64,000 bases of DNA from Bordetella parapertussis (lineage in GTDB: Bacteria > Pseudomonadota > Gammaproteobacteria > Burkholderiales > Burkholderiaceae_E), in the NCBI GenBank assembly GCA_945872335.1, contig CAMBZS010000002.1:1-64000 (forward strand). Direction: 5' to 3'. Of this stretch, positions 210 to 31,522 are shown one piece after another. Made by a program: the position numbers and the translations under genes. Below the pieces are notes generated by a model. The model ran no database searches. It was not told the DNA's origin and saw nothing but the letters and a program-made list of their open reading frames with translations. Positions within the stretch are counted from its first letter, which is position 1, and every line of letters begins with the position of its first letter.

Positions 210-230
210 CCGTTCCGGTTGGGGGTCAGG
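205..230. terminator. Inverted repeat between convergent phoD genes
   Basis: The 7-base arms CCTGACC (205-211) and GGTCAGG (224-230) flank a 12-base loop and overlap both stop codons. No T-run follows, so it is a weak candidate for a bidirectional transcription stop between the two convergent phosphatase genes. Confidence 0.35.
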
Positions 231-1749
231 CGGGCTGCACACCTGGCCGCTCGGCATCAACCACAAACCCGGCGGCAATCCGGCACGCGCTCTTCGGGTC
301 GACTGGGTTATCGACTGTGACCAGGTCGGCGCGAGTGAAATTACCGTCGATCGCGAGCTCGATGTAGCCTCTTCGGTCAGACTGCGCATACCGGATATGA
401 GGGTTGGCCGCGCGACTCGCGTCCACCCGTGACTGCGGTGGTCCGAGGCTGCTTATCGATGTGCAGCAGAACTCGCTTGCTACGACGGGTTTCGAGAGGT
501 CTTCGAAATCAAGCCGCAGGTCCGCAGCTACATGGGTATGTATGTCGCCCCCCAGGACCAGAGGGCCAGGACGTCCTGCGATAGATTCCAGCAGACGCCT
601 GCGCGCGGCAGGATAGCCGTCCCAGCCGTCGGTCCAGTGGCGCTCGGAACCTGGAGGGCCAGAGGCCGCTTTTGCCATCAGGGTGCTCTGCGCGATCAGA
701 TTCCAGCGGTGATCGGAAGCCAGTCCGGCGGCGAGCCAGCGCTCCTGCTGCGCGCCGAGCAGCGATCGATTCGGGTCAGACAATTCGGGGCAGTCTGCGA
801 GCGTGACCGAATTCGATCCGGCACGTCCCGGGCGGGGACAGGCCTGGACATCACGATACTGCCTGGTGTCGAGCAGATGAATCCGCGCGAGGCGCCCCCA
901 ATCAAACCGATCGTAGATTCGAAGCACGCCATCGCGTGGACGCCAGGCCTTGGGCACTGGCATATGCTCCCACCAGGCTTGGTAAGCGTCGGCGCGGTAG
1001 CGCGCGAAATCGGGCTGAAGGCTCTGCCCCGTAAGGCCAGCATAGTCGTTATCCACCTCATGGTCGTCCCAGACGACGAGCCACGGGTGCGCGGCGTGCG
1101 CGGCCTGAAGGGCTGGGTCACTGCGATGTATCGCATAGCGCGCGCGGAAATCCTCGAGTGTCTCCACGCGCGGCCCCACCTCCCGGATGGCGCCGGCTCG
1201 CGTGGCGTATTCATAGATGTAGTCGCCCAGGAATACCACCAGATCAAGTGGTCGCTCAGCCACGTTTGCCCAGGCCGCGTAGTGCCCGGTGTCAAAGCGT
1301 TGGCAACTCGCGATCGCCAGACGCAGCGGCGCCAACTGATCTGCTCCTGGCGCGGTTCGGGTTCGGCCGGTGGGGCTGAGCACGCCCTGGGCTTCGAACC
1401 GGTACCAGTAAGGCCGCCCCGACTCAAGACCGGACGGCTCGGCGTGAACGCAGAATGCGTCGCGAGCGATAGCGATTTCCGTTCCGTTTGCCACGACCGT
1501 TCGAAACGCCTCATCGGCCGCGACTTCCCAGCGCACGCGTACGGGGCCAAGGGATGGTTCGACCATCAGTCGAGTCCAGAGCACAACGCTGTCCGGCCGA
1601 GGCTGGCCGGAGGCAACACCTAGCGCAAAGAGATTGGACGAGTCCGCGCGTGCTGCGGCAGTGGGCATCGCAAAGGCCAAGGCGCCAGCGCTTCCAAGCA
1701 GGAGGTCGCGGCGGGCGGGCGAGAGAAGAGAAGTTGATCGGGGGTCCAT
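226..1749 (-). CDS. phoD: PhoD-family alkaline phosphatase, Tat-exported
   Basis: This is a 507-residue secreted phosphatase expected to release inorganic phosphate from mono- and diesters in the periplasm or outside the cell. A twin-arginine signal (ARRDLLLG, then a hydrophobic stretch ending in AAARA) opens the protein. A fibronectin-like N-terminal domain follows (VASGQPRPDSVVLWTRL), then the metallophosphatase core with LGDYIYEY, WDDHEVDND and GDIHTH, which supply the usual metal ligands. The frame is open to 1863, but I chose the ATG at 1749 because GGAG lies 7 bases upstream and the Tat signal starts right after it. The longer N-terminus would put the signal about 50 residues in. Pho-regulon control is likely from function; I saw no clear Pho box. 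Confidence 0.93.
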   Translation of the reverse strand: MDPRSTSLLSPARRDLLLGSAGALAFAMPTAAARADSSNLFALGVASGQPRPDSVVLWTRLMVEPSLGPVRVRWEVAADEAFRTVVANGTEIAIARDAFCVHAEPSGLESGRPYWYRFEAQGVLSPTGRTRTAPGADQLAPLRLAIASCQRFDTGHYAAWANVAERPLDLVVFLGDYIYEYATRAGAIREVGPRVETLEDFRARYAIHRSDPALQAAHAAHPWLVVWDDHEVDNDYAGLTGQSLQPDFARYRADAYQAWWEHMPVPKAWRPRDGVLRIYDRFDWGRLARIHLLDTRQYRDVQACPRPGRAGSNSVTLADCPELSDPNRSLLGAQQERWLAAGLASDHRWNLIAQSTLMAKAASGPPGSERHWTDGWDGYPAARRRLLESIAGRPGPLVLGGDIHTHVAADLRLDFEDLSKPVVASEFCCTSISSLGPPQSRVDASRAANPHIRYAQSDRRGYIELAIDGNFTRADLVTVDNPVDPKSACRIAAGFVVDAERPGVQPA

Positions 1750-1974
1750 CGATACTCCAGCAAAGGGCTTGATTGGCGCATGGCGTGATGACATGGGCGT
1801 GACGGAGGACGGGCGAGAAAGGTAGCGGGCGAGGAGAGCCGCAGGCGATGATCGTGTGGGCATGCGGTTGCCCTGTTGAGTGCCCTGAGCCCTTCGGGTG
1901 TTCCCGTCATGAGCCCGTCACGCGGGCGTCATAATTGGCGGGCAATTTGCGCGGGTTGAGGCAACACATCCGCC

Positions 1975-2922
1975 ATGCCCTTTCAGACTCTCGCCCCCGG
2001 TCGGCCTGGTCGCGCTCAAGTCGAGTGCGGTTCGCTTATTCGTTTGACGCTCATCCTGCTGTTCGTGACCGTTGTCGCGGCGCAGATCTCCGGCTGTTCG
2101 ATTAACCGCATGCTTGCGCGCGCGGTGGCTGATCAGCTTACCGCGCAGGCTGAAGATCAAGATGACGATCTGGAGCTGGTGCGGGACGCCGCACCATTCT
2201 TTCTGAAATTTGGCGAGTCAGTGCTAGCCCGAACGCCCGATCACGAGGGGCTGGCCGAAGTGATCGCGGCCGGGTTCGTTCGCTACGCGTGGGCATTTGT
2301 TGCCTTTGAAGCGGATCGGGTCGAATCGCGGGATTCGGCCGCTGCCACCCGCCTGCGACAGCGAGCCGTTCGCTTATATGCGCGGGCCGAGCGCCATGCC
2401 ATGCGCGCGCTCGAGCAACATTACCCCGGCCTTGAAAGGTGGCTTGCCAATCCTCTGCCTGGCGGTGATCCCATGGTGCTCGATCCGCGGCATGCGGGCG
2501 TCGCCTATTGGGCGGCAGCCGCGTGGGGGGCCCGGATCGCACTCTCGAAAAGTAATGCAGAAGCTATCGCGCAACTCCCAGCTGCAGTTCGCCTCACCAG
2601 CCTGCTCACCGCCTGCTGTGTGACCTGGGGTGACGGCGCTGTGGCTTCGCTCGCGGGTACGTTTGAAGCGGGTCGACCTGGCGGGCGTTTGAGCGACGCG
2701 CAACGCTGGTTTGACGAAGCGGCGCGGCTATCGGGCGGTCGCATGGCAGCGGTTGCGCTTGCGCGCGCCGAAGCGCTGCCGCTTGCGGCTGGCGATCGCG
2801 ATGAGTTCACCCGGCTCGTGCGCGAGGCCATCACGATCGCAACCCAAAACCCAGGAGCGGATAACCGCATCATGCTCGAGCGGGCGCGCTGGCTGCTCGA
2901 TACGATCGACGACCGCTTCTGA
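1975..2922 (+). CDS. TRAP transporter TAtT-component lipoprotein
   Basis: This 315-residue protein resembles the TAtT (T-component) family, an alpha-helical TPR-like lipoprotein that pairs with TRAP binding proteins; Treponema Tp0956 is the studied example. A hydrophobic signal ends in a lipobox ISGC with the acylated Cys at about residue 41. The rest is helical and Ala/Arg-rich, with TPR-like runs such as RARAVRLYARAE and WFDEAARLSGG. The dctP gene starts 26 bases downstream and a fused DctQM follows, which is the arrangement known for TAtT systems. It probably docks DctP at a membrane. The Shine-Dalgarno match for the ATG is weak (GAGG about 15 bases away), so the exact start is uncertain. 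The ligand is unknown. Confidence 0.8.
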   Translation: MPFQTLAPGRPGRAQVECGSLIRLTLILLFVTVVAAQISGCSINRMLARAVADQLTAQAEDQDDDLELVRDAAPFFLKFGESVLARTPDHEGLAEVIAAGFVRYAWAFVAFEADRVESRDSAAATRLRQRAVRLYARAERHAMRALEQHYPGLERWLANPLPGGDPMVLDPRHAGVAYWAAAAWGARIALSKSNAEAIAQLPAAVRLTSLLTACCVTWGDGAVASLAGTFEAGRPGGRLSDAQRWFDEAARLSGGRMAAVALARAEALPLAAGDRDEFTRLVREAITIATQNPGADNRIMLERARWLLDTIDDRF

Positions 2923-2948
2923 TTCTCCAGACCTGTAGAGATCAACTC

Positions 2949-3980
2949 ATGTCATCGTCCCGCCGCTACTTTAGCGTCAATGCCTGCGTGCTCGCTTTGA
3001 ACACCTTGACCGTTGCGGGTACGACGAGTGCACAGCCCGCCGCGCAGCTGAGAATCGGCTCGGTGGTCCCGAGGAACTCGGTGTACCACCAGGAACTGAT
3101 GAAGCTTGGTGAGGCGTGGCGGGCCGCTCAGGGTGGCAACGCACGCTTTGCTGCGTTTACAGATGGTTCGCAGGGCGGCGAAGCCGAGATGGTCCGGCGC
3201 ATGCGGATCGGCCAGCTTCAGGGCGCACTGATGTCGGTCGTGGGTCTGCGTGAAATCGAACCCACCATCTCGGCGCTGCAAAATTTGCCACTGCTTTTTC
3301 GCAGCTGGGAGGAAATCGACTATGTCCGAGAGCGCCTGCGACCCTCGATCGAACGGCGATTCAGCGAGCGTGGCTTTGTGGTACTCGGCTGGGGCGACGC
3401 GGGCTGGATTCGGTTTTTCTCTCGCGAGCGGGCCGTGCATCCGGATGACTTCAAGCGGATGAGATTTTTCGCCTGGGGATCCGAGCCCGAGCAACAGTCC
3501 ATCATGAAGAGCCTGGGTTACACACCGGTTCCGCTTGAGACGGGGGATGCGCTGGCGGCGATTCAAACTGGGATGATCAGCGTGGTGCCGTCGACGCCCT
3601 ATTTCGCGTTGGCCGCACAAATTTTCTCTGCCGCATCGCATATGCTCGAGATCAATTGGGCCCCGATGGTTGGCGCTCTGGTGGTGACCCAAAAAGCCTG
3701 GGACTCGATGTCGGATACGGCTCGAGCATCGCTCCGCACTGCGGGCGAATCAGCGGGCATCGCCATGCGGAATCGCGCCCGAGCTGAGGTCGACGAGGCG
3801 GTCGAGGCCATGAAGAAGCGCGGACTCACCGTTAACCAACCCGATGACTTGCAACGCAAGGCGTGGGAGGACCTCGCCCAGGGCCTTTATCCGAGGCTTC
3901 GCGGCACCCTGGTGCCTGCTGACGCCTTCGATGAAGTGTTTTTGCACCTTAAGGCTTATCGTTCAACCCGGGGCGGTTGA
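2949..3980 (+). CDS. dctP: TRAP transporter substrate-binding protein DctP (TAtT-associated)
   Basis: This is a periplasmic binding protein of 343 residues for a TRAP secondary importer. The N-terminus SSRRYFS plus a hydrophobic run ending in SAQP looks like a Tat signal. The DctP fold shows in RIGSVVPRNSVYHQELMKLG, the central FKRMRFFAWGSEPEQQ segment at the position where DctP proteins carry their ligand-binding Arg, and PLETGDALAAIQTGMI. Many DctP proteins have R-x-x-G at the Arg site. Here RFFAWG replaces it, so the ligand may not be a simple carboxylate. The gene lies between the TAtT lipoprotein and the fused permease, apparently in one operon. Confidence 0.9.
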   Translation: MSSSRRYFSVNACVLALNTLTVAGTTSAQPAAQLRIGSVVPRNSVYHQELMKLGEAWRAAQGGNARFAAFTDGSQGGEAEMVRRMRIGQLQGALMSVVGLREIEPTISALQNLPLLFRSWEEIDYVRERLRPSIERRFSERGFVVLGWGDAGWIRFFSRERAVHPDDFKRMRFFAWGSEPEQQSIMKSLGYTPVPLETGDALAAIQTGMISVVPSTPYFALAAQIFSAASHMLEINWAPMVGALVVTQKAWDSMSDTARASLRTAGESAGIAMRNRARAEVDEAVEAMKKRGLTVNQPDDLQRKAWEDLAQGLYPRLRGTLVPADAFDEVFLHLKAYRSTRGG

Positions 3981-3993
3981 GCGGCCGGCTGCG

Positions 3994-5823
3994 TTGAGTA
4001 CCCTCGCATCATCGGAATCGCGGACTGACCTGTTCGGCTGGTTGGCCGCGCTCGCGCTCGCGCTGATGGTGGCGATTCCGGTGGTGGAGATCGCTGCCCG
4101 GCCCCTGATGGGTCAAGGCATTGATAACGCCTCGGTGGTAGTCCAGCATCTCGGGCTATTGATGGCGATGGCCGGTGCGGTAGCGGCCGCGCGCCGAAAC
4201 GAGTTGAGCACTGTGCTGCATCTGCCCGAGCGAGCAGATCAGGGGCTGGGGCAGCCGGTCGATCCGTTGTGGGTACTGCATGCGGTTGCGCTTAGCGGGT
4301 CGGCGTTCGCGGCCGCGGTGCTTGCGCGGGCGAGCTGGACCTTCGTCATGAGCGAGATGGACGCAGGCACTCGGCTCGCCTATGGCATTCCGGTCTGGGC
4401 GATCCAGTTTGCGCTACCCGCGGGATTTGCGCTGATTTCGGTCTTTCTGGGCAGGCGCCTGTCGCGACGGGCCGCCCAGGGCTGGGCACTTGCGTTGGCA
4501 CTGCTCGGCGCGGGCTGGTTGGGCGCGGAGGCCTTTGAGGGCACGAGCCCCATCGGAACTGTTGTAGCGGTAGCGATGATCGTTGCCATGCTACTTGCAG
4601 GCGCGCCGATCTTTGCCTGTCTTGGTGCGCTCGCTGTGGTGCTGATGGCGGGGGAAGGGCTGCCGCTTGCGTCAGTTCCGCTTTCTCACTATCAGATCAC
4701 CGTCAATCCGTCGCTCCCCGCGCTACCGCTCTTTACGCTTGCCGGTATTGTGGTGGCGCGAACCGGTGCAGCCGCGCGGGTGGGGAGGCTCTTGCAGGCG
4801 CTATTTGGCGACGGACCGCGGGCGGTTGCGATCGCCGCGGCACTGCTCTGTTCAGGCTTCACTGCGCTCACGGGCGGAAGTGGCGTAACGATTCTTGCGC
4901 TGGGAGGGCTCCTCTATCCGATGCTCACCCGTGCCGGCTATCCAGAGCGTCGGGCGATCGGTCTGCTGACCGGTGCGAGTGCCCTCGGCGTATTGATCGC
5001 ACCATCGGTTCCGCTGGTGCTGTATGCCGTGATTGCCCGGGTGCCGATTCAAGAGATGTTCGTTGCTGGGCTTCTGCCGGCTGCGATCATGATCGTCTGC
5101 CTGCTGGGCATTGGTGGCTATTTCAGGAAGATGCCACGGCTCGAGCCGGTGCTCGGCGGAGCCGATCTGCCGCTGCAGAGGCCTGATCGTAAGGCCGATA
5201 TCTATCTCGCGGCGAAGGCGGCGGGGTGGGAGCTGTTGATTCCAGTCATTGCCGTCGGGTCGATTGCGGTGGGCATTGCCACACCCACTGAAAGTGCCGC
5301 ACTCACGGCGGCATTTGTCGTGCTGTCACAAGGTCTGGTGCACAGGGAACTGACCCCAGCGCGGTTGGGGCTGTGCCTCGCCGACAGCGCGCGACTGATC
5401 GGCGGGGTGATGCTGATCCTTGGCATGGCGCTTGCGCTCACGAATTGGCTGACTGATGTCGGGGCGCCAGCCGCGTTGGTTGACTGGGTCCGGGAGCGGG
5501 TCGACAGCCCGCACCTTTTCATGCTCGCGCTACTTGCCACGCTGTTTGTGGCCGCCGCGTTGCTCGAGATCTATGCCGCGATCGTGGTGCTGGTTCCGCT
5601 CCTCCTGCCGCTTGCGCAAAGCTATGGCATTGACCCGGTGCACTTTGGCGTGGTGTTCATGGCGGCGATGGAGGTGGGATTCATCTGCCCGCCCGCGGGG
5701 ATGAATCTGTACTTTGCCTCGGCCATGTTCGGTAAGCCGCTTCTCTGGACCGCGCGCGCGGCGCTACCTTCCCTTCTGGCGATCATGCTTGGCACGCTGG
5801 TGGTTGCGTTCGTAGTCAGCTAG
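3994..5823 (+). CDS. TRAP transporter fused small/large permease (DctQM)
   Basis: This inner-membrane protein of about 609 residues fuses the DctQ small subunit (first ~190 residues, about four membrane segments) to DctM. DctM is the sodium-driven translocation subunit, with about twelve segments and the family stretches ALTGGSGVTILALGGLLYP and GFICPPAGMNLYFASAMFG. The frame is open from 3844, inside dctP, but that part is only dctP read out of frame. I place the start at the TTG at 3994, 13 bases after the dctP stop, because the hydrophobic DctQ sequence begins soon after. There is no good Shine-Dalgarno, so translation may be coupled to dctP. The ATG at 3931 is an alternative start. Fused QM subunits are common in TAtT-type systems. 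Confidence 0.88.
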   Translation: MSTLASSESRTDLFGWLAALALALMVAIPVVEIAARPLMGQGIDNASVVVQHLGLLMAMAGAVAAARRNELSTVLHLPERADQGLGQPVDPLWVLHAVALSGSAFAAAVLARASWTFVMSEMDAGTRLAYGIPVWAIQFALPAGFALISVFLGRRLSRRAAQGWALALALLGAGWLGAEAFEGTSPIGTVVAVAMIVAMLLAGAPIFACLGALAVVLMAGEGLPLASVPLSHYQITVNPSLPALPLFTLAGIVVARTGAAARVGRLLQALFGDGPRAVAIAAALLCSGFTALTGGSGVTILALGGLLYPMLTRAGYPERRAIGLLTGASALGVLIAPSVPLVLYAVIARVPIQEMFVAGLLPAAIMIVCLLGIGGYFRKMPRLEPVLGGADLPLQRPDRKADIYLAAKAAGWELLIPVIAVGSIAVGIATPTESAALTAAFVVLSQGLVHRELTPARLGLCLADSARLIGGVMLILGMALALTNWLTDVGAPAALVDWVRERVDSPHLFMLALLATLFVAAALLEIYAAIVVLVPLLLPLAQSYGIDPVHFGVVFMAAMEVGFICPPAGMNLYFASAMFGKPLLWTARAALPSLLAIMLGTLVVAFVVS

Positions 5824-5920: not shown

Positions 5921-6796
5921 ATGACGACGCGTCGACAACTGATTTCCGCACCGCTTGCTGTGGCAACGGTGTCAGCCCTGCCCGCCCCTTTTGTGCATGC
6001 GCAGAAGCGTCCGGTCCTGAAGGTAGGCTTGGGCCCGCAGCAGCCCACACAGGCCGATACGCGCCGGGTGTGGGAGCCGCTCTATCGCAGCGTGTGCGAT
6101 CAGGTTGGCTGCGATCTTGACCTGACAGTTGCCAACGACTGGGCAGGCATCGCGGTTGCGCTTGCCAACCAGCAGATCGATGTCGCGCAGATGGGGCCCT
6201 GGGGATACGTGCTCGCCAAGCAAAAGGGCGAGGCGCAGGCAATTGCCATGCTGCTAATCGAAGGTCGCGATTACTACAAGGCGATTGTAGTGGGCCGGCC
6301 CGGGCTCGAGGTGAAGAGTTTTCCAGATGACGCCAAAGGGATGTCGATGCAGATGCTGGACGTCGGGTCCACGTCGGGCTGGCTGGTTCCCACCCACTTC
6401 CTGCGCTCGCGCGGTATCAACCCCCGTACCTACTTCGGGCGTTACGCGGAAGGTGCGTCGGCCGCTGCCGCTCAGATGGCGACCATTGGCGGGCAGGTTG
6501 ACCTCGCGACAGGCTGGGACACCCACCGCAACACCATGATCCGAAACGGGCAGATCAAGCCTGACGCCAACCGAGTGGTCTGGGAGTCGGAGCCCTTGCC
6601 TAATGAGCCGGTGGTTGTACGGCGTGGCTTTGATCCGGATCTTGCGAAACGCTTGCAAAGCGCGTTTGCTTCGCTACCCAAGGATGACGCCGCCAGGATG
6701 ATGCCGTGGCCGTACTCTGGCTTCGTTGCGGTGGGGCATGAGCCCTACGCCAAGCTTGAGGTCATGGGTCGCGAAGTCGGCGTGCTCAAGGGTTGA
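5921..6796 (+). CDS. phnD: Phosphonate/phosphite-type ABC transporter substrate-binding protein
   Basis: This periplasmic binding protein of 291 residues belongs to the PhnD family, which presents phosphonates, phosphite or phosphate esters to a PhnE/PhnC importer. TTRRQLIS begins a Tat-like signal ending at VHAQ. Family features include VGLGPQQPTQADTRRVWEPL at the mature N-terminus, the IDVAQMGPWGYVLA segment (usual family form D-x-x-x-x-G-P), and MLDVGSTSGWLVPTHFL, the DxxSxSG-like loop that normally holds the phosphoryl group. A good GGAG ribosome site lies 8 bases before the ATG. It leads a four-gene operon: phnD, phnE, phnC and a HAD phosphatase. The window has no C-P lyase genes, so a true phosphonate would need enzymes encoded elsewhere. 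Confidence 0.88.
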   Translation: MTTRRQLISAPLAVATVSALPAPFVHAQKRPVLKVGLGPQQPTQADTRRVWEPLYRSVCDQVGCDLDLTVANDWAGIAVALANQQIDVAQMGPWGYVLAKQKGEAQAIAMLLIEGRDYYKAIVVGRPGLEVKSFPDDAKGMSMQMLDVGSTSGWLVPTHFLRSRGINPRTYFGRYAEGASAAAAQMATIGGQVDLATGWDTHRNTMIRNGQIKPDANRVVWESEPLPNEPVVVRRGFDPDLAKRLQSAFASLPKDDAARMMPWPYSGFVAVGHEPYAKLEVMGREVGVLKG

Positions 6797-6812
6797 GTAG
6801 CAGGACACCATC

Positions 6813-7640
6813 ATGACCCTGCGTGCACCGGCGCGTCGGCTTGCCGCGGGTGGCTATGCGGAGCAGCTATTCTCCTGGCGATCCCGAGCAGGGCTGATCC
6901 GTGCCGCGTCGGTGCTTGTCGCGTTTGCTTTCGTGGTCGGCTGCGCCTGGATTGCGAAGGTGGAGCCCGGCAAGTTGATTGAGGGCTTGCCGCGGCTTCT
7001 GAAGTGGGCGGCGACCGCCTGGCCGCCCAACCTGTCCGAGCTGGATGCGGTGGCGCTGCGTGCTGCCGAAACGGTGGCAATTGCCACCATCGGAACGCTT
7101 GCTGCGGCCATCGTATCGGCGCCGCTGTCGATGCTGGCGGCAAGCAACATTACGCCGAGTCCGTCAGCCTCCCGGGTGATCCGCGGTTTTGCCAACGCGT
7201 GTCGCGGTATCGATACGGTCGTTTTTGCAATCCTCTTTGTCGCAGCGGTCGGCCTCGGACCATTTGCCGGGGTGTTGGGAATGTTCATCCACTCGATCGG
7301 CGTGATTACAAAGCTCAACGCCGAGGCCATCGAGACCTTGCCAAAGGCTCCGCTCGAAGCGGCGGCCATGACGGGCGCCGGTACGGGTTCGATCATGGGT
7401 CACATCGTCTTGCCCGCAGTGTTGCCCAACCTGAGTTCCGTCTCCCTGTATGTGTGGGAGGCCAATGTTCGAACCTCGACGGTTCTTGGCATTGTGGGCG
7501 CGGGCGGTATCGGGATCGAAATCAAGGCGGCGATCGATCTGCTCGACTTCCAGCGACTGTTCACGCTCACGATGGCGGTGCTGATCATGGTCACGCTGAT
7601 CGACCAGCTGAGCGCCTGGCTGCGTCGCCGGTTGGTATGA
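6813..7640 (+). CDS. phnE: Phosphonate-type ABC transporter permease
   Basis: This 275-residue inner-membrane permease has about six hydrophobic segments. The cytoplasmic coupling loop reads EAAAMTGAGTGSIMGHIVLPAV, the EAA motif of binding-protein-dependent importers, and the C-terminal half has [14 protein letters not shown], typical of PhnE. It starts 16 bases after phnD. Its TGA overlaps the ATG of phnC in an ATGA arrangement, which implies translational coupling. There is a single phnE here, unlike the tandem phnE genes of the second phn operon at 31523-33125. Confidence 0.92.
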   Translation: MTLRAPARRLAAGGYAEQLFSWRSRAGLIRAASVLVAFAFVVGCAWIAKVEPGKLIEGLPRLLKWAATAWPPNLSELDAVALRAAETVAIATIGTLAAAIVSAPLSMLAASNITPSPSASRVIRGFANACRGIDTVVFAILFVAAVGLGPFAGVLGMFIHSIGVITKLNAEAIETLPKAPLEAAAMTGAGTGSIMGHIVLPAVLPNLSSVSLYVWEANVRTSTVLGIVGAGGIGIEIKAAIDLLDFQRLFTLTMAVLIMVTLIDQLSAWLRRRLV

Positions 7641-8407
7641 CTGCTCACCGAAGCGACACCCTGAGAGTCGACGCGCTCAGCAAACGCTACGGAGACGTCT
7701 GTGCGCTTGATCACTTGTCGGTCTCGGTCGAGCCGGGTGAGATGGTGGTGCTCCTCGGCCCCAGTGGTGCGGGCAAGTCCACTCTCTTCCGGTGCCTCAC
7801 CGGGCTGGTGAGGCCCGACTCGGGCGAGGTGTGGTTGCTCGGCGAGCCTATCCATCGCCTGGATCGGCGGGCGCTTCAGCAGCACCGCCGTTCGATCGGA
7901 TTGGTATTCCAACAACACAACTTGGTCGGCCGCCTGAGCGCGATCGACAACGTACTCACGGGCCGACTTGGATCGACGCCACTGTGGCGAGTCCTTGCGA
8001 GACGGTTTGCGCCCGCTGACCGGCAGGCCGCCCTTGCGAGTCTCGATCGCGTGGGGCTTCTTGACAAGGCGTATCAACGAAGCGATTCACTGTCGGGCGG
8101 CCAGCAGCAACGTGTGGCGATTGCCCGCGTCCTGGCGCAGGACTGCAAGGTTCTGCTGGCCGATGAGCCGGTGGCGAGCCTCGATCCGGAGTCGGCACGC
8201 AGGGTATTGTCAGATCTGCGTCGGGTTGCACGGGAAGAAGGGCTCGCTGTGTTGTGCAGCCTCCACCAAGTGGAGTGGGCCCGGCAGTATGCCGATCGGG
8301 TTGTCGGGTTGCGAAGCGGGCGTGCGGTGTTTGACTGCCCGGTCGGGGAGCTCAGCAGTGCGCGGGAATCCTCGCTGTATCAGTCCTCGGAAAGCGAGTC
8401 ACCGTGA
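7637..8407 (+). CDS. phnC: Phosphonate-type ABC transporter ATP-binding protein
   Basis: This 256-residue ATPase powers the PhnDE importer from the cytoplasmic side. Walker A is GPSGAGKS, the signature is LSGGQQQR, and Walker B is VLLADEPVASLDPE followed by the switch His in CSLHQVEWA. The frame is open far upstream to 7004, but that part is phnE read out of frame. The ATG at 7637 overlaps the phnE stop by four bases and begins a PhnC-like N-terminus (LRVDALSKRYGDVCALDHLS). The stop in turn overlaps the GTG of the HAD gene. It resembles the second phnC at 33113-33877 only at family level. Confidence 0.93.
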   Translation: MTAHRSDTLRVDALSKRYGDVCALDHLSVSVEPGEMVVLLGPSGAGKSTLFRCLTGLVRPDSGEVWLLGEPIHRLDRRALQQHRRSIGLVFQQHNLVGRLSAIDNVLTGRLGSTPLWRVLARRFAPADRQAALASLDRVGLLDKAYQRSDSLSGGQQQRVAIARVLAQDCKVLLADEPVASLDPESARRVLSDLRRVAREEGLAVLCSLHQVEWARQYADRVVGLRSGRAVFDCPVGELSSARESSLYQSSESESP

Positions 8408-9081
8408 CGGTCAACGCCGACTCCGAGCGGCTTGCCGAGCTGTTTGCCCGGCCAGTTCAGATCTTCGACCTTGATGGAACGCTGGTCGACACCCTGGTTG
8501 ATTTGACGGTGGCGCTCAACATGGCGCTGTACGACCATCGTTTGCCGCCGGTGTCGCGAGATCTGGTACGCGCATCGCTGCATGGCGGCTTTGAAGCGAG
8601 TGTCAGGGCCGCATTGGAAGCGGCCGATGCCCACGACGATCGATTCGATCCGCTCCTCGCAAGCTATCAGCATCGCTATCGCGCAGTGTCCGGAAAGCTG
8701 GCCCGGGTCTATCGGGGTGTGCCCCGCAAGCTCGCGGAGCTGCGAAGGCATGGCGCGCGGCTCGCAATCTGCTCGAACAAGACCGAAGCCGAAGCCCGCC
8801 GGTTGCTCGAGCTTATGGGTATCGCTGGGTTCTTCGAGGCCGTGGTGGGCGCAGATACCTGCGGGACGCGAAAGCCTGATCCGGAACCGCTCGTCAAAGC
8901 GATCGACCTGCTGGGTGGCAACCGGGGTCACGCGCTCTTTACGGGCGACAGCCATGTTGATGTTGCTTGTGCGCATGCTGCGGGAGTCGACTGCGCCTTT
9001 TTTGGTGGCGGTTACGGCGACCCGCAGGCTACGGTGAGCGCGCGATTTGATGCGTGGGACCAGCTTCCGGTTCATGGCTGA
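8404..9081 (+). CDS. HAD-superfamily phosphatase (Gph-like) at the end of the phn operon
   Basis: This 225-residue cytoplasmic hydrolase has all four HAD motifs: FDLDGTLVDT (nucleophile D22, acid D24), ICSNKT (motif II), the Lys of GTRKPDPEP (motif III) and FTGDSHVDV (motif IV). The helical cap and the length fit the phosphoglycolate-phosphatase/beta-phosphoglucomutase subclass. Motif I is DLDGT, not the DWAGT of phosphonoacetaldehyde hydrolase, so I call it a phosphatase and not a C-P hydrolase. Its GTG start overlaps the phnC stop (GTGA), so it is translationally coupled to the importer. That suggests it dephosphorylates the imported compound or a direct product. The substrate cannot be read from sequence. 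Confidence 0.85.
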   Translation: MTVNADSERLAELFARPVQIFDLDGTLVDTLVDLTVALNMALYDHRLPPVSRDLVRASLHGGFEASVRAALEAADAHDDRFDPLLASYQHRYRAVSGKLARVYRGVPRKLAELRRHGARLAICSNKTEAEARRLLELMGIAGFFEAVVGADTCGTRKPDPEPLVKAIDLLGGNRGHALFTGDSHVDVACAHAAGVDCAFFGGGYGDPQATVSARFDAWDQLPVHG

Positions 9082-9163: not shown

Positions 9164-12100
9164 GTGATCAAAACACTCCCGCCCGCCAAATCGCCTGCTG
9201 CTTCAACTCCGAAGACTCTCCGCGCCGACGCGCGCAAGCCGCAGATTGATGAGCGCTCCGCTCCGGGCGCGGAAGACGCGGCGCTGGTTATGGCAGGACT
9301 CGACAACACCCGGGCGGCCAATCGGGACCAGCGGGATATCGACGACCAAGCAGCTTTAGAACTCGGGGGCGTAGCCGGCGAGTCGATCGTCTCCGCAACC
9401 GGTGCCGAGCCTGCCGCCGGCTCGGGCGCGTCGTCAGCAATAACGATCGAAATCGCGCAGGCCTCTCCCGCGGGTGCAGCAACCGCAAGCGATGCGTCTG
9501 CTAAGAGTGCCGGTTCGGGCGGCGCCTTCGCAGGATTCGTTCCTGTCGCCTTCGCGCTGGGCGGCCTGGGGCTGATCATGAGCCGCGACAGCGGCACAAG
9601 TGCTCCCGCAGCAACGCCGACGATTGCCGGCAAGATCGTGGACGGGTACATCTCGGGCGCAACCGTCTTTATCGACCGAAACAAGAACGGCCAACTCGAC
9701 GCCGATGAGCCCTCAACCAAGTCGGATGCGCAAGGCAACTTCACGCTGCCCAAGGGCGTTGAAGGAACGCTGGTATCGGTTGGTGGCCGAGACATCTCCA
9801 CCAATCTCGATTTCACAGGTGTGATGAAGGCGCCGGCGGGCTCGACGGCGGTAACGCCACTCACCACGCTGGTGAGCGAGTTGATGACCAGCCGCAATCT
9901 GAGCGCTGCAGCTGCTCAGGAACAGGTGCTCGATGCGGTAGGTCTTTCAGCGCTCAAGGGCAAAGTCGACCTGACCACGCTCGATCCGGTGGCGGCTGCG
10001 ACGGCGGGCACTGCTGGAGCGCTCGACATCCAGAAAGCCGGCGTTGCGGTGGCCTCCCTGGTGAACAGTCTGGCGGTGAAGGTGCAACAAGCCGCGAACG
10101 TCGGTACCGACAAACATGACGAGATCGCAAGCGGCATTTTCTCGGAGCTTGCGAAGTCGATCGGAGCCGGCAAGCTCGCGAGCGACAAGATCGCAGCGAC
10201 CGCGAGCGAGATCGTCAATACGCTCGCCACGCAGGCCACGATCGCGGGTGTTGCAGTCGGCAGCGCCAATCTGAAAGCAGCAACGATTGCCGCTATCGAG
10301 AATCTCGCCAGCCTGTCGTCGAAGCTTGCAGCCGCCACGAACGTCGACTCGGTCGCGTCGGGGCAAAAGACCGCTCTGACCCAGACAACCTATACGCTGC
10401 AACTTCTGCATTTCTCCGACGCCGAGGCCGGAGCGCTTGCCTCGACCACCGCGCCCAAGCTGGCTGCGCTGGTGGACAAGTTCGAGGACGCATATTCAAA
10501 CAGCATCACGCTCGTCGGGGGTGACAACTTCCTGCCGGGCCCGTTTCTCGGTGCGGGCACCGATCCATCGATCATTACCGCGCTCAACGCTGCGGGTGGC
10601 GGCACACTTGCGGCAACGGCGACCGTTCCGATTGCTGCGGTCGATATCGCAATCCACAACGTGATCGGCGTTGAAGCATCAGCTGTCGGCAACCATGAGT
10701 TCGATCTGGGCTCGCGCGTGCTGAGCGATGCGATCAAGGGTGCGAGCGGCGCGAAGGGTGCCCAGTTCCCGCACATCACCGCCAACCTGGATTTTTCGGG
10801 CGATGCCGATCTCAAGTCGATCTATGTCGACACCACGGCCACGGCGGGGCTTGAAGAGGCCTCGTCGCTCAAGGGCAAGATCGCGCCGTCGGCGATCCTG
10901 ATCGAGAACGGCGCAAAGATCGGCCTGGTAGGCGTCACCACCCAGATCCTGGAGTCGATTTCCTCGCCCTCCGGTACCGAAGTCAAGGGCTTCCCGACAG
11001 GCCCTGGCCCCAATGGCGAAGCCGACGACATGACGCTTCTGGCGTCGCAGCTGCAACCGGTCATCAACGACCTCAGCAATCAGGGCGTCAACAAGATCAT
11101 TCTTCTGTCGCACCTGCAAATCGTCGGCAACGAAAAGTTGCTCGCCACCAAGTTGTCCGGCGTGGACATCATCGTGGCTGCAGGCTCCAACACCCGGATG
11201 GGTGACGCCAATGACAAGGCGGTCGCCTTCGCCGGTCACCCTGCAGCGTTTGCCGAGTCCTATCCCCACGCTGCCACGGACAAGGACGGCGCGACCACGC
11301 TGGTGGTCAGCACAGACAACGAGTTCACCTATCTGGGCCGGTTGGTGGTCGATTTCAATGAGGCGGGCAATGTTGTGGCGTCCAGCGTGACCGCCAATGC
11401 CGCCGTCAATGGTGCATGGGCCGCCACCGATGCCAATGTGGCGGCGGCCTGGGGTGTCGCAGAGTCCGCGCTTGCAACGACAGCCTACGCAGCAGGAACA
11501 CGCGGCCATGCAGTCAAGACACTGACGGATGCGGTGCAGTCGGTCATCACCGTCAAGGATGGCAATGTGCTGGGGTATGCCTCCGTGTATCTGGAGGGCG
11601 AACGCACGGCGGTGCGTTCAGAAGAAACCAACCTTGGAAACCTGTCGGCCGATGCGAACCTGTATGCGGCCCGCCAGGCACTGGGCGCGGCCGCGCCGTC
11701 GACGCCAATCGTGTCGCTGAAGAACGGCGGTGGCATTCGCGCGCAGATCGGTACGCTGTCCAATCCCAAGGCGGACGGAACAGTCGACAAGCTCGCGCCG
11801 TCCGACAACAGCGTCTCGCTGCTCGACCTCGAGAATTCGCTGCGATTCAACAACCAGCTGATGATGTTCGACACCACACCCGAGGGGCTCAAGGCCATCC
11901 TCGAACATGGTGTTGCGGCCGGTACGCTTCAGGGGCGCTTTCCGCAGATCGGTGGCGTGGCGTTTTCCTGGGACCCCGATTTCGCAGCGGGCGCGCGTGT
12001 CATGGATATTGCGCTGGTCGCAGCCGACGGTTCGCGAATCGGGCTGTATGACAATGGCTCGAAGCTCGCCTCGGCGCCGGCCAAGATTTCGGTGGTGACG

Positions 12101-15100
12101 CTGAGCTTTCTCGCCCAAGGCGGCGACAGTTATCCGATCAAGGCCAATGCCGACAACTTCCGCTATTTGGTGGATGTCGCAGGTGGCGGATACAAGCTGA
12201 GCGCAGCGGTACCTGAAGATCGTGATTTCACTGCGTCGGCCACCACGACTGAATTCGCAGCGGGTTCAACGGTGTCGTCCGAACAGGCAGCCTTCCGGTC
12301 GTACCTGTCGGCAAGCTTTGGCACTGCGCAGACTGCGTTTGCCCAAGCCGACACGCCGGCGGCTTACGACGAGCGCATTCAGAACCTCAACTCTCGGACC
12401 GAAGGAGTCTTGCAGCCGTCGGATATCGCGCTTGCCAAGCTTGGAACGTACAGCGCCGGTGTTTATAACGCCGCGGGCGCCGAGATTGTGGCCTTCGATG
12501 CAGCCACCAAACGCATGTTCCTGGTGAATTCGGTGGCGGCCGAGCTTCATGTGATCAATGTCGCGGATCCTGCCAACCCGGTGCTGGCGGGCAAGATCGA
12601 TTTCAAGGGCTACGCCACCACCGCAGGCACCACGCCCCAGGTGAACTCGGTTGCGGTGTCCAATGGCATGGTTGCGGTGGCGGTGGCGGATGCCAACCCC
12701 ACGGCCGCGGGCAAGGTCGTGCTGTTCAAGGCGGACATTGCAGTCTCGACCACACCCACCGCACCTGCCGGTGCACGCGCGCTCGACGCAGGCTTCGGTC
12801 CCGACATGCTGACCTTCACGCCAGATGGCCGGAAGGTTTTGGTCGCCAACGAGGCCGAGGCGATCAACGAGCGTGCTGCGAGCGATCCGTACTACAACGG
12901 CGGCGCCCTGTTTGTGGCCAACGGCGGGATCACCGTTGTGACCTTGGGTGGCGACCCTGCGAGCGCGATCAGCAACGCCACTGCCCAGCAACTTGATTTC
13001 ACGGCCTACAACGGCAAGGAAGGGTGGTTGCGCGAACGTGGCGTTCGAATTGCACCGGGCGCCGCCGCCTCGAATGACCTCGAGCCTGAGTACATTGCCG
13101 TCTCGCCCGATGGCAAACAGGCAATGGTTACGCTTCAAGAGAACAATGCGGTTGCAGTACTGGATCTAAGCGCGGCCAATGCGTCGATTGTCGATATCGT
13201 GCCGATGGGCTACAAGGACCATGCGCGCGGTGATCTGGTGATGACGGCCTATGACACGATGTCGGCCGCCGACCTTCCATCGATTGGCACCGACGCCTTT
13301 GGCAAGGCCGTGCCGTCGGGTGGCTTCTCCGGTCTCCACTATCTCGGGTCCAGCAACGGCAAGTGGCGGTTCCTCACCGTGAGCGACCGGGGCCCGAACG
13401 GCGAGCCGGTCAATGTCGATTCCGATGCAGCGCTTGAGCGACCCTTCGTGTTGCCGGCTTACCAGGCGCGGGTATCCACCCTGGAGTTTGACCCGGCCAC
13501 CAAGCAGATTGCGATTGTTGCCACCACGCTTCTAACCCGTACCGACGGCACACCGCTGACGGGTTTGCCCAACATCCCGGGCACCGACGAGGAACCGGTT
13601 CAGATCGTGCCCGCTACCGATGCGTCGCGAGCCGGAACCTTCACTTCGGGTGGTGCAACGCTTGGCTACAAGACCTTGTCCTACGACCCTCTGGGTGCTG
13701 ATCTCGAGGGCATCTACCAGACCGCGACCGGGTCCATGTGGATGGTCGATGAATACCGTCCTGCAGTCTATGAATTCGACGCAACCGGCAAGATGGTGTC
13801 GCGTTTCGTGCCAGCAGGCACCGCGGCGCTGACGCCCGACACCAGCGACACCTTCGGCACCGAAACCCTACCGGCGCACCTGATCAAACGGCAGGCCAAC
13901 CGCGGATTCGAGGCGCTGGCGGTAGATGAATCGCGCGGTCTGCTGTTCGCGTTTGTCCAGAGCCCGTTGGACAGCGTATCCGGCTCGTCGGTCGACACCG
14001 CTGGTCCGCTGATTCGCATCGAGGTGATGGCAATGCGGGATCTCGCTGCGGGCACCGCATTGCCCCAGGGCGGGACCCTATCGGCTGCTGCATCGAAAGG
14101 TACGGTGATTGCCGAGTATGCCTATCTGCTTGAACGGCCGACGTTGAATCTGGGTGCGCTCGACAAGATTGGTGATGCGGTGTTCAACCCCGCCACCGGC
14201 ACCATCTTTGTCTTTGAGCGTGACTCCTCTGTTGCGCCCGAGGCGAAGAAGGTTCTGTACGAGATCGACCTGCGCGGCGCGACGAATCTGCTCTCGGCCA
14301 CCCCGGTGCTGCCGACCGGTAAAACGGTGCTGGAGGCGCTCACCGTTGATGAGTTGCTGGCAGCCGGCATCAACCCGGTACACAAGGAGCGTATCGCGAA
14401 TCTGCCGTCGCTCGGTTTTACGCCCAACGACAAGGCGGAAGGTCTTGCCTTGCTGCCCAATGGCGGTCTTGCGGTCATCAACGACAACGACTTCGGAGTC
14501 AACGGTGTCGGAACGGAAACCGTCGGATTCGGACTGTTCCAGTTCAATGGCGCCAACCGCATCGATGCAGACAATGACACGACTGGTCAGCCCACCGGAA
14601 CCATACCCGCAATCAACCTGGTCAGCCCCAAGCTCTATGGCGCCTACATGCCCGACGCGATCGCATCGTTCAGCGTCAACGGCAAGACCTACTACATCAC
14701 GGCTAACGAAGGCGACTCGCGCGGCGTGGATGAGGTTCAGGTCAAGGATCTGGGCACCACGGGCAAGCCCGTCGCGGATGTGGCAGCCAACGCGTCTGCG
14801 CTTGACGGTGACCTGAAGGTAATCACCAACGGCATCGATGTTGACGGCGATGGCGACCTCGACAAGCTGGTCGCCTTCGGAGGGCGATCGTTTTCGATTC
14901 TGGACGCCTACGGCAATCGGATCTACGACAGCGGTGATCAGATCGAGCGACTGATGGCGGAGGTGTTGCCCGGCGCGTTCAACGCCAACCACACCAGCAA
15001 TTCGGTCGATAACCGCAGCGATGACAAAGGACCCGAGCCCGAAGCGGTCACGACCGCTGTGGTGGGCGACAAGGTGTACGCCTTTGTCGGTTTGGAGCGG

Positions 15101-18100
15101 ATGGGCGGTGTCGCAGTGTATGACGTGACCGACCCGTACAACCCCACCTTCGCCAGCTACTCGAACACCCGGAATTTCAGCGAGACACCGGCGCTTGGCA
15201 AGGGCGGTGACCTCGGGCCCGAAGGCATCATCGCCATCCCCGCCTCGGCAAGCCCCAACGGCAAGCCCATGATTGCGGTGGCCAATGAGGTGAGCGGGAC
15301 GGTGTCGTTGTTCAACATCGCGTCGACGCCCATTTCCGAGACTGATCCGACGGTCTGGATGGCGGGCCAGTTGCGCAACGACGGCTTGGTGGGTACCAGC
15401 GGCGCGCCATCGTTGTCGTTCAATCATCCGGCGGGCGGGGTTGACCTCGCAGGCTATCAGCTGACCGGACGCTTTGCGCTGCCCGCTCAGCCCGCCGCTG
15501 CTAACAAGCTCGCGCACGAGGCATCGGCCGTCACTTACAACCGCGATACCGACAGCCTGTTCGTTTTGGGCGATGGCGGCACTGCCATCGCCCAGGTCAC
15601 CAAGCAGGGCGTACTGATCGACTCGATGGCGCTGGCCGCGGGATCGAGTGCGCAAGGCACGTACTTCTACGATACCGAAGGCATTGCCTACTTGGGTAAC
15701 GGTCGTTTTGCGATGGTCGAAGAGCGCGACCGCAAGTTGAACGAGTTTGTCTACCAGGCAGGCGGCACGCTGGGGCCGACCAGCGCGGTGCGTTCGGTGA
15801 AGATGGGCACATCGATCGGCAACATCGGTCTGGAGGGCCTGAGCCTAGACCCCGCCACGGGCGGCTTCCTGTTCGCCAAGGAAGCGACGCCGATGGGGGT
15901 GTTCCAGTCGACCGTGGATTTCGCAGCGGGCACGGCCAGCAACGGTTCGCCGACCACGGACAACGCAGCCAACCTGTTTGATCCGGCCAAGACCGGGCTC
16001 ACCTCGGTCAACGACATCTTCGCGCTTTCCAATGTCACCCAGGCGGGCTCAGCAGATTACAACAGCTTCCTGCTGCTGAGTGCAGCCGATGGCAAGCTGC
16101 TCAAGATGGATCGGCAAGGACGTACCGAGGGCAGCATCAGCTTCGCTGCGGCGGCGAAGAACGAGGGCGTCACCATGGACGGCGCCAGCAATATCTACAT
16201 TGTGGGCGAAGAGGGTGGTGGCAGCATCGACAAACCCGAGATGCTGGTGTACTCGCCAACGGTTCACGGTGCTGCGGTTGCGCCCGGGGCCAACCTCTAT
16301 CTGTCATTCGATCAGCCCGTGATGGCGGGTAGCGGTTCGATCGTTCTCAAGGATGGAGGCAGTGATGTCCGAACGATCTCCGTATCGGATACCACCCAGG
16401 TCAGCATCACTGGCACCCTGGTCACCCTCAATCCTGCCGCGTCGCTCAATGCCGGCACCAGCTACACCGTGAGCTACGACGCGGGCGTGTTTAAGGGGAT
16501 CACCGGCATCGCGATGGACAGCGTTGCTGCAGGCGTTCTGTCGTTCAAGACAGCGGGCGATCTGTTGGCGCCCCGGTTGACCTTGACGTCGCCGGTGAAT
16601 GGTGCGGCGGGTATCACCAGCCACCACACCATCCTGACGTTCGACGAGCCCGTGAAGGCGGGAAGCGGCATGATCACGCTGAGCGGAGTCAACTCGGGCG
16701 GATTGACCGATGTGCGAATGATCCCGGTGGGCGATACCACGCAGGTGACGATCAGCGGCACCACGGTCGACATCAATCCCAGCGCAGATCTGCGAAATGG
16801 CTACACGTATACCGTGTCCATCGGCGGCGGTGTGATCACCGACCTGGTGGGTAACGCGTACCCGGGCTTCACCACAGCCACATCGCTGCGCTACACACGC
16901 AACACCGGTACCGCGGTGGGGCCGCAAACCGTCATTGTTTCGGAGGTCAATTCGAACGCAGGCACCGATTTTTTCGAGCTCTACAACTACGGCACCGAAG
17001 CGGTCAGCCTGGATGGCTGGAAATGGGATGACGACTCGGCGTCGTTTACCGATGCCGCTGCGGTGAGCTTCCCGGCCGGGACGACACTTGCTGCCGGTGC
17101 CCGCCTGGTGGTGGTGGCAGGCACTGATGCGGCTGCCTTCAAGACCGCGTGGGGGCTTGGCGCGGAGGTGCCGGTGGTGGCAACCGGTGGACCGGGACTC
17201 GGCTCGGGCGATGCGGTGGTCGTGTTTAATCAGGCCGGTCAGGCAGTCACGGCGCTTAACTACGGAATCAGCGCGAAAACAGCGTCGGACGGATCGGCCA
17301 TTCCGGTGGCGGCGCCCGCGGCGGGAATCACGCTCGCGAGTGCGGCGAGCCATGCCGGTGCCGCCTTTGGCGGAACGGCTACGGCCTCTGCGGTATGGGA
17401 TGGCGTGTCAACGACCGCGCCAACCTACCTGCCTGCCACCGTCGGTCAACTGGGGGCGTTCGCCCAGTCGGCTGCTGCGGCCAATATCGGCTCGCCCGGG
17501 CTGATTGCAGCACCCCAATCGTCGGACAGCGTGGCGCCCACGTTGTCGAGTTCACTGCCGATCAAGTCCTCGCAGTCTGCGCTCGCCACCACCAATATCG
17601 TGCTGAGTTTCAGCGAATCGGTGAAGGTGGGGACGGGCAATATCGTCATCGTCAACACGGCGGATGCGAGCGATACCCGAACCATTCCAGTGACCGACGC
17701 CGCGCAGGTCGCCATCTCCTCCGGAGTGGTTACCGTCAATCCGACCTCCAATCTCAAGCCGGGGGCCAGTTATTCGGTGCAGATGGCCGCTGGCGTGATC
17801 GAGGACCTGGCGGGGAACGACTTTGCAGGGCTGCTGGGCGACCAGTCGATCGGCTTTGCGGTGGCGACGCAATCGCCGAAGCTGCTGATCACCGAGCTCA
17901 ACTCAAACGCAGGCCCGTCGGACTATTTCGAGCTCTACAACTTCGGCAGCTCAGCGATTTCGCTGTCGGGTTGGCGTTGGGATGACGATTCAGCATCGTT
18001 TGCCGAAGGCAAGGCGTTTCCGGCGGTCAGCATTCCGGCGGGCAAGTCCTTGGTGGTTGCGTCGACGCCTGAGACGGATGCCGCGCTGGCAGCGTTCAAA

Positions 18101-27630: not shown

Positions 27631-28944
27631 CTATTTCGCGAGTGCCGGCACCCAGGTGGCGAGCGGCGGGAACATGATGATGAGCGCGATCAGAATCAGC
27701 ACGCAGGCGATGAACGGTGCGGCGGCGAGATAGATGTCACGCATGGTGGTTTCCGGGGGCGCCACGCCCTTCATCACAAAGAGCAGCAGTCCGAAGGGTG
27801 GCGTGGTGTAGCCGATCTCGAGCGCGAGCAGCATGATGAGGCCGAACCAGGTGAGGTCAAAGCCCAGCGTCTTGGCCAGCGGGAAAAAGATGGGCGCGGT
27901 GAGCAGCATCATGGACAGCTGGTCCATGAAACAACCCAGGAACAGCAGAATGCCGATCATGGCGAGCAGCATGGCAAGCGGGGCAAGTTCGAATGACAGC
28001 GCCCAGTTCATGAGTCCGCTCGAGGCGCCTGTGAAGGCGAGCGCCTGGGCAAACGTGGCCGAGCCGAAAATGATCAGGAACGACATCACCGTGACCCGTA
28101 GTGCGCCCTCCACCGATCGGACGATCGCCTGCCAGGTGAGCGTGCGGTAACAGGCGGCGAGCACCGCGACCGACAGGGCGCCCAGCGCTGCCGCTTCGGT
28201 GGGCGTGGCCCAGCCCACCAGCATCAGCACCACCGAAAACACGATCAGCCCGACCATCGGCAGCACATCGAACACGATCAGCCGGATTTTCTCGGCGAAC
28301 GGCGCGGGCTTGACTTCGTAGTAGGGCGCAGCGCTGGGATCGATGACCGTCCAGCCCCAGATCAGCACGCCATACATGAACGCAAGCACCAGGCCAGGAA
28401 TGATGCCGGCAAGCAGCAAGTCGGTAACGTCGGTTTGCCCCAGCGTGGCGAGGAGTACGGTGAGCGCCGACGGCGGGATGATGACCGCCAACCCGCCCAC
28501 GCCCATGATCGGACCGATCGACAGGTATTTGTTGTAGCCCCGCTTCATCATGTCGGGGACCATCAGCGAGCCGAGGAGCGCACACGCGCCCATGGAGGAA
28601 CCGGCAGGGCCGGCAAACGCGGTCCCGCCGATGAGCGTGACATAGGACAAGCGACCGCGGACATTGCCCAACAGCTTGTCGGCGGCGTTGAAGCAGCGTG
28701 TGGCAAGACCCGTGTGATAAAACAGTTCGCCCATCAGGAGAAACATGGGGATGGGCACCAGCGCGAAGGTGGTCATCGCGCCAAAGCCGTTGTTTACCAC
28801 CTGGCCGATTGCAGCCGATCCGCCCATGTAGAACACCGCGGCCATGATGTTGGTTGCGAAAAAAGCGATGGCCACCGGTATGCCAACCAGCATCAGCGCA
28901 ACCGATGCGCCGAACAGCACGATGGCGGGCCAGATCCAGTCCAT
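27631..28944 (-). CDS. dctM: TRAP transporter large permease DctM
   Basis: This 437-residue membrane protein has about twelve segments and is the translocating subunit of a sodium-coupled TRAP importer. Family stretches are FAGPAGSSMGACALLGSLMVP, VIIPPSALTVLLA, WATPTEAAALGAL and EIGYTTPPFGLLLFVMKGV. The frame is open to 29055, but the ATG at 28944 overlaps the dctQ stop by one base (TGATG), so the two are coupled. The operon order on the minus strand is dctP, hairpin, dctQ, dctM. It is convergent with the CoA-transferase gene with 8 bases between. Confidence 0.93.
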   Translation of the reverse strand: MDWIWPAIVLFGASVALMLVGIPVAIAFFATNIMAAVFYMGGSAAIGQVVNNGFGAMTTFALVPIPMFLLMGELFYHTGLATRCFNAADKLLGNVRGRLSYVTLIGGTAFAGPAGSSMGACALLGSLMVPDMMKRGYNKYLSIGPIMGVGGLAVIIPPSALTVLLATLGQTDVTDLLLAGIIPGLVLAFMYGVLIWGWTVIDPSAAPYYEVKPAPFAEKIRLIVFDVLPMVGLIVFSVVLMLVGWATPTEAAALGALSVAVLAACYRTLTWQAIVRSVEGALRVTVMSFLIIFGSATFAQALAFTGASSGLMNWALSFELAPLAMLLAMIGILLFLGCFMDQLSMMLLTAPIFFPLAKTLGFDLTWFGLIMLLALEIGYTTPPFGLLLFVMKGVAPPETTMRDIYLAAAPFIACVLILIALIIMFPPLATWVPALAK

Positions 28945-29462: not shown

Positions 29463-29532
29463 GGCCGGTTTTCGCGGGGCGGGGCGCGGTTAAGGGCAGG
29501 GTAATGACCCTGGCCAAGGTTCAGGTCGCTGC

Positions 29533-29575: not shown

Positions 29576-29590
29576 CAGGAGCGGCTGCGC

Positions 29591-31504: not shown

Positions 31505-31522
31505 TCGGCGATCGACCCGTGG

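Follow-up and report, generated by a model that had tools for sequence, protein, structure and literature searches.

We analysed a stretch of 64,000 nucleotides (nt) from Bordetella parapertussis (assembly GCA_945872335.1, contig CAMBZS010000002.1, positions 1 to 64,000), referred to here as the window. It contains two importers of the phn type, each ending in a gene for a HAD enzyme. A sequence-only reading had described them, and we confirm both gene clusters and their different gene orders: phnD-phnE-phnC-HAD at 5921-9081 on the plus strand (cluster 1) and phnD-phnC-phnE-phnE-HAD at 30692-34911 on the minus strand (cluster 2). Such systems usually bear the label of phosphonate transporters. 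The two clusters look like phosphorus-scavenging systems for different compounds, with cluster 2 predicted to take glycerol phosphates. Their genes are as follows.

Cluster 1
5921-6796, plus strand: phnD1, HtxB-like periplasmic binding protein with a rebuilt pocket; best PDB match HtxB (5me4)
6813-7640, plus strand: phnE1, permease; TIGR01097 240 bits (cut-off 216.7)
7637-8407, plus strand: phnC1, ATPase; TIGR02315 296 bits (cut-off 266); 4-nt overlap with phnE1
8404-9081, plus strand: HAD1, Gph-like HAD phosphatase of class IA; PF13419 1.9e-32; TIGR01449 153.5 bits (equivalog cut-off 180)

Cluster 2
33883-34911, minus strand: phnD2, predicted GpxB-type glycerol-phosphate-binding protein; best PDB match GpxB (9lf9)
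33113-33877, minus strand: phnC2, ATPase; TIGR02315 304.8 bits, above the cut-off
32331-33125, minus strand: phnE2a, permease; TIGR01097 267 bits; 13-nt overlap with phnC2
31523-32338, minus strand: phnE2b, permease with its ATG at 32338; TIGR01097 275.9 bits; 8-nt overlap with phnE2a
30692-31504, minus strand: HAD2, HAD-IIB enzyme, putative glycerol-phosphate phosphatase; TIGR01484 above the cut-off; 18 nt downstream of phnE2b

Both HAD genes are coupled or closely spaced, as had been claimed. The overlaps in cluster 1 read ATGA (phnE1/phnC1) and GTGA (phnC1/HAD1), and since the latter is 4 nt long, HAD1 is translationally coupled. The HAD subclasses also differ as proposed, with two corrections. 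HAD1 is Gph-like but stays below the Gph cut-off, and HAD2 is a HAD-IIB enzyme (55.1 bits against a cut-off of 41.8, with the DxD...K...GDxxND motifs) but not a Cof protein (TIGR00099, 35.7 bits against 137).

The claim that both clusters import phosphate esters for dephosphorylation is well supported for cluster 2 by its GpxB-type pocket, by a glpD, glpR and ugp context and by co-occurrence; for cluster 1, HtxB-like with a rebuilt pocket, it is plausible. That the two are parallel solutions to one problem did not stand. We rejected the same job for both because their pocket residues and gene contexts differ, and they very probably take different substrates.

The binding protein of cluster 2

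The top PDB match of PhnD2 is GpxB with bound glycerol-1-phosphate (G1P) (PDB code: 9lf9; 8.5e-76, 258.6 bits), and the runner-up is PtxB (4e-22, 82 bits). GpxB contacts G1P and glycerol-3-phosphate (G3P), which it binds alike, through Thr111, Gly112, Tyr138, Ser168, Asn169, Ser170, His199, Arg223 and Thr247 (PMC12718374). Eight of these nine residues are identical in PhnD2 (T111, G112, Y138, S168, N169, S170, H199 and R223), and the ninth, Thr247, is replaced by a serine that retains the hydroxyl. On this pocket, we consider it likely that PhnD2 would bind both G1P and G3P. The same ten-column pocket, T G Y S N S H R T S, is found in about 20 relatives, whereas proteins that are 64-68% identical to 9lf9 end in T T instead of T S. 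Because one genome (G163) holds both pocket types, the PhnD2 group stands beside canonical GpxB as its sister.

Cluster 2 thus resembles the GpxB system of Phaeobacter and Marinobacter in its binding-protein family, its ligand residues and an importer built from phnC and phnE; it differs in sequence identity, in T247S and in the HAD-IIB gene directly behind the permease. The paper on GpxB lists Burkholderiales among the carriers, mentions no phosphatase and names no enzyme for imported G1P (PMC12718374).

Several relatives depart from this arrangement. Two to three tandem GpxB-like binding proteins per transporter occur in loci L084, L085, L087, L089, L090, L091 and L096, where the extra copies are mostly altered at the glycerol-tail residues (Gly or other); this pattern suggests a wider substrate range. 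Locus L104 has a GpxB-like protein (6887-7990, plus strand) whose pocket has changed greatly (P G M S N S H H T D); it probably takes a different ligand. GlmU and GlmS adjoin gpxB in many relatives, and we rejected them as partners, as they are housekeeping neighbours.

The Ugp importer works with the phosphodiesterase GlpQ/UgpQ on glycerol-phosphate supply, so that there, too, import of glycerol phosphates is tied to an enzyme that cleaves phosphoesters. The two importers are of different build: Ugp is a CUT1-family transporter, whereas Gpx uses the phosphonate-family (PhnT) scaffold.

HAD2 and the glycerol-phosphate genes

The catalytic residues D25, D27, T58, K186, D214 and D218 of HAD2, together with N217, are invariant across 33 homologues. 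Its structure model has a pLDDT of 95, and since the nearest PDB folds, PH1421 and TA0175, are at most 20% identical, the model gives no substrate. Evidence on its role comes from the genomic context. Among 250 genomes of the order, gpxB occurs in 30 and HAD2 in 44, with both in 23 against 5.3 expected (Fisher 1e-14); counted over 51 families of the order, the figures are 12, 13 and 11 against 3.1 (2e-8), and among 349 genomes sampled across the phylum they are 27, 26 and 10 against 2.0 (3e-6), where all p-values are only indicative since the sampled genomes share kinship.

Neighbouring genes in relatives, called by a simple script so that some gene ends are approximate, tie the HAD2 family to glycerol-phosphate metabolism. 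In 18 of the 45 HAD2 loci, from five families, HAD2 has glpD as a same-strand neighbour no more than 0.9 kilobases (kb) away, often with the two genes overlapping. Regulators of the GlpR/DeoR type adjoin HAD2 in L105, L168, L187 and L199; in L203 such a regulator is divergent from gpxB, and glpD follows directly downstream of the gpx permease. In L185 (7480-13530), the HAD2 homologue faces a UgpBAEC-like operon, which is a direct link of the HAD-IIB family to a classical G3P-type importer. Looking from the importer, a phosphatase of the types searched for lies within 2.5 kb in 17 of 50 gpx loci: HAD-IIB in 7, HAD-IIA (TIGR01459) in 5 and histidine phosphatase in 5, mostly directly beside the transporter genes. 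That unrelated phosphatases were recruited to this one position suggests that dephosphorylation is needed there.

This context tips our judgement slightly towards HAD2 being a glycerol-phosphate phosphatase. Known HAD enzymes that take phosphate off G3P are PA0562 and PA3172 of Pseudomonas aeruginosa (PMC9765544) and yeast RHR2. They differ from HAD2 in that they were found by homology and expression tests and not beside an importer, and they may be of another HAD subclass. A literature search for a HAD-type G1P phosphatase found nothing in the collection covered, and wider ones on HAD enzymes associated with phn importers gave nothing relevant.

Cluster 2 could instead import G3P for direct use, as a membrane lipid precursor or as a carbon source through GlpD, with HAD2 as a homeostasis phosphatase against toxic G3P and no G1P route. 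Such a role would fit the HAD2 family adjoining glpD even in genomes that lack gpxB, the easing of G3P stress by HAD phosphatases in P. aeruginosa (PMC9765544), and the glpK and glpD of the own genome, which lie side by side on contig 86 (a search of this genome for canonical UgpB found none). However, HAD2 sits with the importer in the window and not with glpD, and as GpxB takes G1P and G3P alike (PMC12718374), a G1P route would be needed anyway. We find this alternative rather doubtful, and favor import of both isomers followed by dephosphorylation.

The binding protein of cluster 1

The best PDB match of PhnD1 is HtxB of Pseudomonas stutzeri (PDB code: 5me4; 2.1e-62, 39% identity), which is also its top Foldseek match (TM-score of 0.90-0.92, normalised by target). 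The pocket of HtxB consists of W52, P71, Y97, N128, T129, S130, F158, M176, R178 and D206 (PMC5700983, PMC6629693). In PhnD1, the corresponding residues are W P Y S T S A W T E. A search with the clade alignment gave 34 readable loci, of which 31 have exactly this pocket; the other three are from Rhodoplanes and show small conservative variations. These proteins form a monophyletic group in the tree with a support of 100/100 (clade 1), and their hosts include Burkholderiales, Azoarcus, Roseomonas, Phreatobacter and Reyranella. A plasmid survey returned only proteins below 50% identity.

Of the 20 other HtxB-like relatives compared in the order, 19 have kept a predicted phosphite pocket, W P Y S T S H F/Y R D; the outlier, L114, differs at several positions. 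Distant HtxB-like importers with a phosphite-type pocket adjoin a gene for an ArsS-family arsenosugar radical SAM enzyme in L069, L074, L076, L079 and L082 (assigned by the TIGR04167 match of the L079 copy), and these loci often also hold a metallophosphoesterase and a glycosyltransferase-like gene.

Compared with HtxB, clade 1 shares the fold, the W52 cap and the two-oxygen site of Y97, T129 and S130, but has the changes N128S, F158A, M176W, R178T and D206E, and beside PhnD1 a HAD phosphatase takes the place of oxidising enzymes. Of the features W52, N128, F158 and the D206-R178 salt bridge, PhnD1 retains W52 alone. The 'hybrid' HtxB-like proteins of Bradyrhizobium and Methylopila (PMC6629693) have N128S and the tryptophan cap in common with clade 1. 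They carry His158 and Tyr/Phe176, where clade 1 has Ala158 and Trp176 and, further, Thr178 and Glu206. PhnD1 therefore has the S128 of these predicted phosphite binders together with A158 and W176. Nor does it show the amine pair of PhnD proteins linked to carbon-phosphorus (C-P) lyase: Glu177/Asp205 there correspond to Thr/Glu in PhnD1.

Clade 1 has thus lost the third-oxygen His of the phosphite type and the Arg/Asp salt bridge and has gained Trp176 and Glu206. These changes speak against hypophosphite or phosphite; a larger ligand, perhaps a cationic one, fits them better. A true HtxB function in hypophosphite or phosphite import would agree with the closest solved protein and fold and with the kept W52, P71, Y97, T129 and S130. 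Since the five substitutions occur in nearly every member, removing the salt bridge and both known solutions for the third oxygen (Phe in HtxB, His in PtxB and the hybrids), and no oxidising gene was noticed adjoining cluster 1, we regard that function as very unlikely. The ligand of cluster 1 is probably a small organophosphate.

HAD1 and the partner genes of clade 1

The catalytic residues D22, D24, K157, D182 and D186 of HAD1 are invariant in an alignment of eight homologues. Its cap motif is SLHGG, while the Gph-like protein of the own genome (L256) carries GKG; HAD1 is distinct from that protein. Homologues of the same subfamily, with the cap motif [ST][LM]H[GF]G and 33-48% identity to HAD1, occur at several positions of the clade-1 tree. 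The proposed conservation of HAD genes beside phn genes stands for the eight betaproteobacterial loci with such a gene (the window, L217, L218, L219, L220, where it lies upstream of phnD, L221, L236 and L241). It does not extend to the alphaproteobacterial members, nor was a homologue seen in L243 and L245; for gpx it applies to the minority of loci given above, though HAD-IIB co-occurs genome-wide.

In L218 and L236, a metallophosphoesterase gene directly precedes HAD1. The best PDB matches of its product are 2dxl and 3d03, which we take to be the glycerophosphodiesterase GpdQ of Enterobacter aerogenes, and relatives of this GpdQ-like enzyme lie near phnD in L222 and L241. Several clade-1 loci also hold a Ugp-like CUT1 importer, a LysR regulator associated with aminoethylphosphonate, or a PhnF-type regulator. 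Together, the neighbours point towards organophosphate or phosphonate supply and not to a single ligand.

One specific candidate is a cationic organophosphate from lipid headgroups (phosphocholine, phosphoethanolamine or a glycerophosphodiester), which would be held in an aromatic and acidic box of W52, W176 and E206 and cleaved by the phosphodiesterase, where present, before HAD1 frees phosphate. That the whole clade has lost the third-oxygen His and acquired W176 and E206 is in keeping with it, as are the alignment of E206 with Asp205, which binds the amine in Escherichia coli PhnD, the GpdQ-like diesterase beside HAD1 and the Ugp-like importer in the same loci. Yet a headgroup may be too large for a small pocket, the regulators linked to the clade are like those of phosphonate systems (a GntR regulator of PhnF type and the aminoethylphosphonate-associated LysR), and cluster 1 of the window has no diesterase. 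We see this candidate as possible, with the odds somewhat against it.

The same regulators, and the acidic residue at the amine-binding position of PhnD1, could also indicate an importer for phosphonates or their esters, where HAD1 would work on a phosphorylated product of their breakdown. We think this unlikely, as HAD1 is only weakly phosphonatase-like (20.7 bits on the PhnX model TIGR01422, cut-off 220), the genome has neither C-P lyase nor phosphonatase, and its phosphonate locus owns a PhnCDE importer with the E/D amine pair. An organophosphate remains our preferred ligand class for cluster 1.

Phosphonate genes elsewhere in the genome

The absence of C-P lyase and phosphonatase, noted earlier for the window, holds for the whole genome: the search found no PhnJ, and no protein passes the cut-off for PhnX. 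The earlier reading also saw no phosphite dehydrogenase in the window, an enzyme for which no genome-wide search was made. Contig 61 (L009, 1030-15666), which lies beyond the window, does encode a phosphonate route of PhnW, PhnA (phosphonoacetate hydrolase) and PhnY, with phnCDE, a Phn-HD oxygenase, a phosphonate-associated alcohol dehydrogenase, a second ABC importer and an SpdA-like phosphodiesterase. Its PhnD (PhnD3) passes TIGR03431, hits E. coli PhnD among the PDB entries (1.5e-97) and has Glu/Asp at both amine-binding positions, and so serves as a positive control for our reading of pockets. This complete-looking 2-aminoethylphosphonate system is the true phosphonate importer of the genome. 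PhnD1 and PhnD2 pass only the broad model TIGR01098 and fall short of TIGR03431 (141 and 149 bits, respectively, against 261).

Proposed mechanism

We suggest that periplasmic PhnD2 would bind G3P and G1P, and that PhnC2 and the two PhnE2 permeases would bring them into the cytoplasm, where HAD2 would release phosphate and glycerol. The glycerol could then be re-phosphorylated by GlpK and oxidised by GlpD. By its known stereospecificity, GlpD should not accept G1P, and dephosphorylation followed by GlpK and GlpD would bypass this limit. Cluster 1 would be a separate importer, with an HtxB-like pocket remodelled from hypophosphite or phosphite to a larger organic phosphorus compound, from which the coupled HAD1 would free phosphate, in some relatives after a GpdQ-like phosphodiesterase. 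We hold this explanation of both clusters as a whole with moderate confidence: the data show the homologies, the pocket residues, the gene order with its coupling, the co-occurrence and the intact catalytic residues of the HAD enzymes, and from these the ligands, the substrates of the enzymes and the sequence of reactions are predicted.

Several observations weigh against it. PhnD2 is only 41% identical to GpxB 9lf9 and belongs to a sister group with Ser247. In 33 of the 50 gpx loci, none of the phosphatase types searched for lies within 2.5 kb. HAD-IIB is present in 21 of the 220 genomes without gpxB in the order sample, and the role of HAD2 may accordingly be general G3P control. A Pho-box scan gave 9 matches where 12.4 were expected, no signal above chance, and the alphaproteobacterial clade-1 loci lack a HAD1 homologue. 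Separately, a sigma-70 promoter scan of cluster 2 found none.

A bolder version is tentative, and we would not bet on it. HAD2 would be a HAD-IIB G1P phosphatase that enables bacterial use of archaeal-type G1P and is replaced elsewhere by HAD-IIA or histidine phosphatases; independently, clade 1 would be an unrecognised organophosphate importer, evolved from a hypophosphite- or phosphite-type binder through a rebuilt third-oxygen site.

Significance

Archaeal lipids are built on a G1P backbone, and the description of a bacterial G1P importer dates only from December 2025. The Gpx importer type is already known. In the literature covered, we found no description of a pairing of HAD with Gpx, of a HAD-IIB family linked to glpD or of a remodelled clade of HtxB-like proteins. 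A HAD family that tracks both the gpxB importer and glpD across an order offers a tangible candidate for the step that follows import. Cluster 1 is a distinct, so far uncharacterised importer, and it illustrates that labels given by overall similarity (phosphonate, phosphite or hypophosphite importer) can hide quite different pockets. Functional assignments in environmental genomes may thus be wrong, for instance where HtxB or PhnD is counted to gauge the use of reduced phosphorus.

Neighbouring genes in the window

A gene for a single protein of 3104 amino acids at 9164-18478 (plus strand) starts 82 nt past HAD1. Its secreted-type product has a 5'-nucleotidase C-terminal domain and phytase-like, choice-of-anchor I, SdiA-regulated, three Big_5 and two lamin-tail domains; no counterpart was noticed beside the clade-1 loci of relatives. 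On the upstream side of cluster 1 lies a PhoD phosphatase (226-1863, minus strand), and the two genes suggest a phosphorus-scavenging island. Cluster 1 is preceded on the same strand by a TRAP transporter (1975-5823, plus strand) that includes a T-component (TAtT). A further TRAP transporter follows HAD2 after a gap of 36 nt and is possibly co-transcribed with it:

27631-30655, minus strand: TRAP transporter DctP-DctQ-DctM, by the Pfam families DctP, DctQ and DctM

Both phn importers of the window are thus flanked by a TRAP transporter on the same strand.

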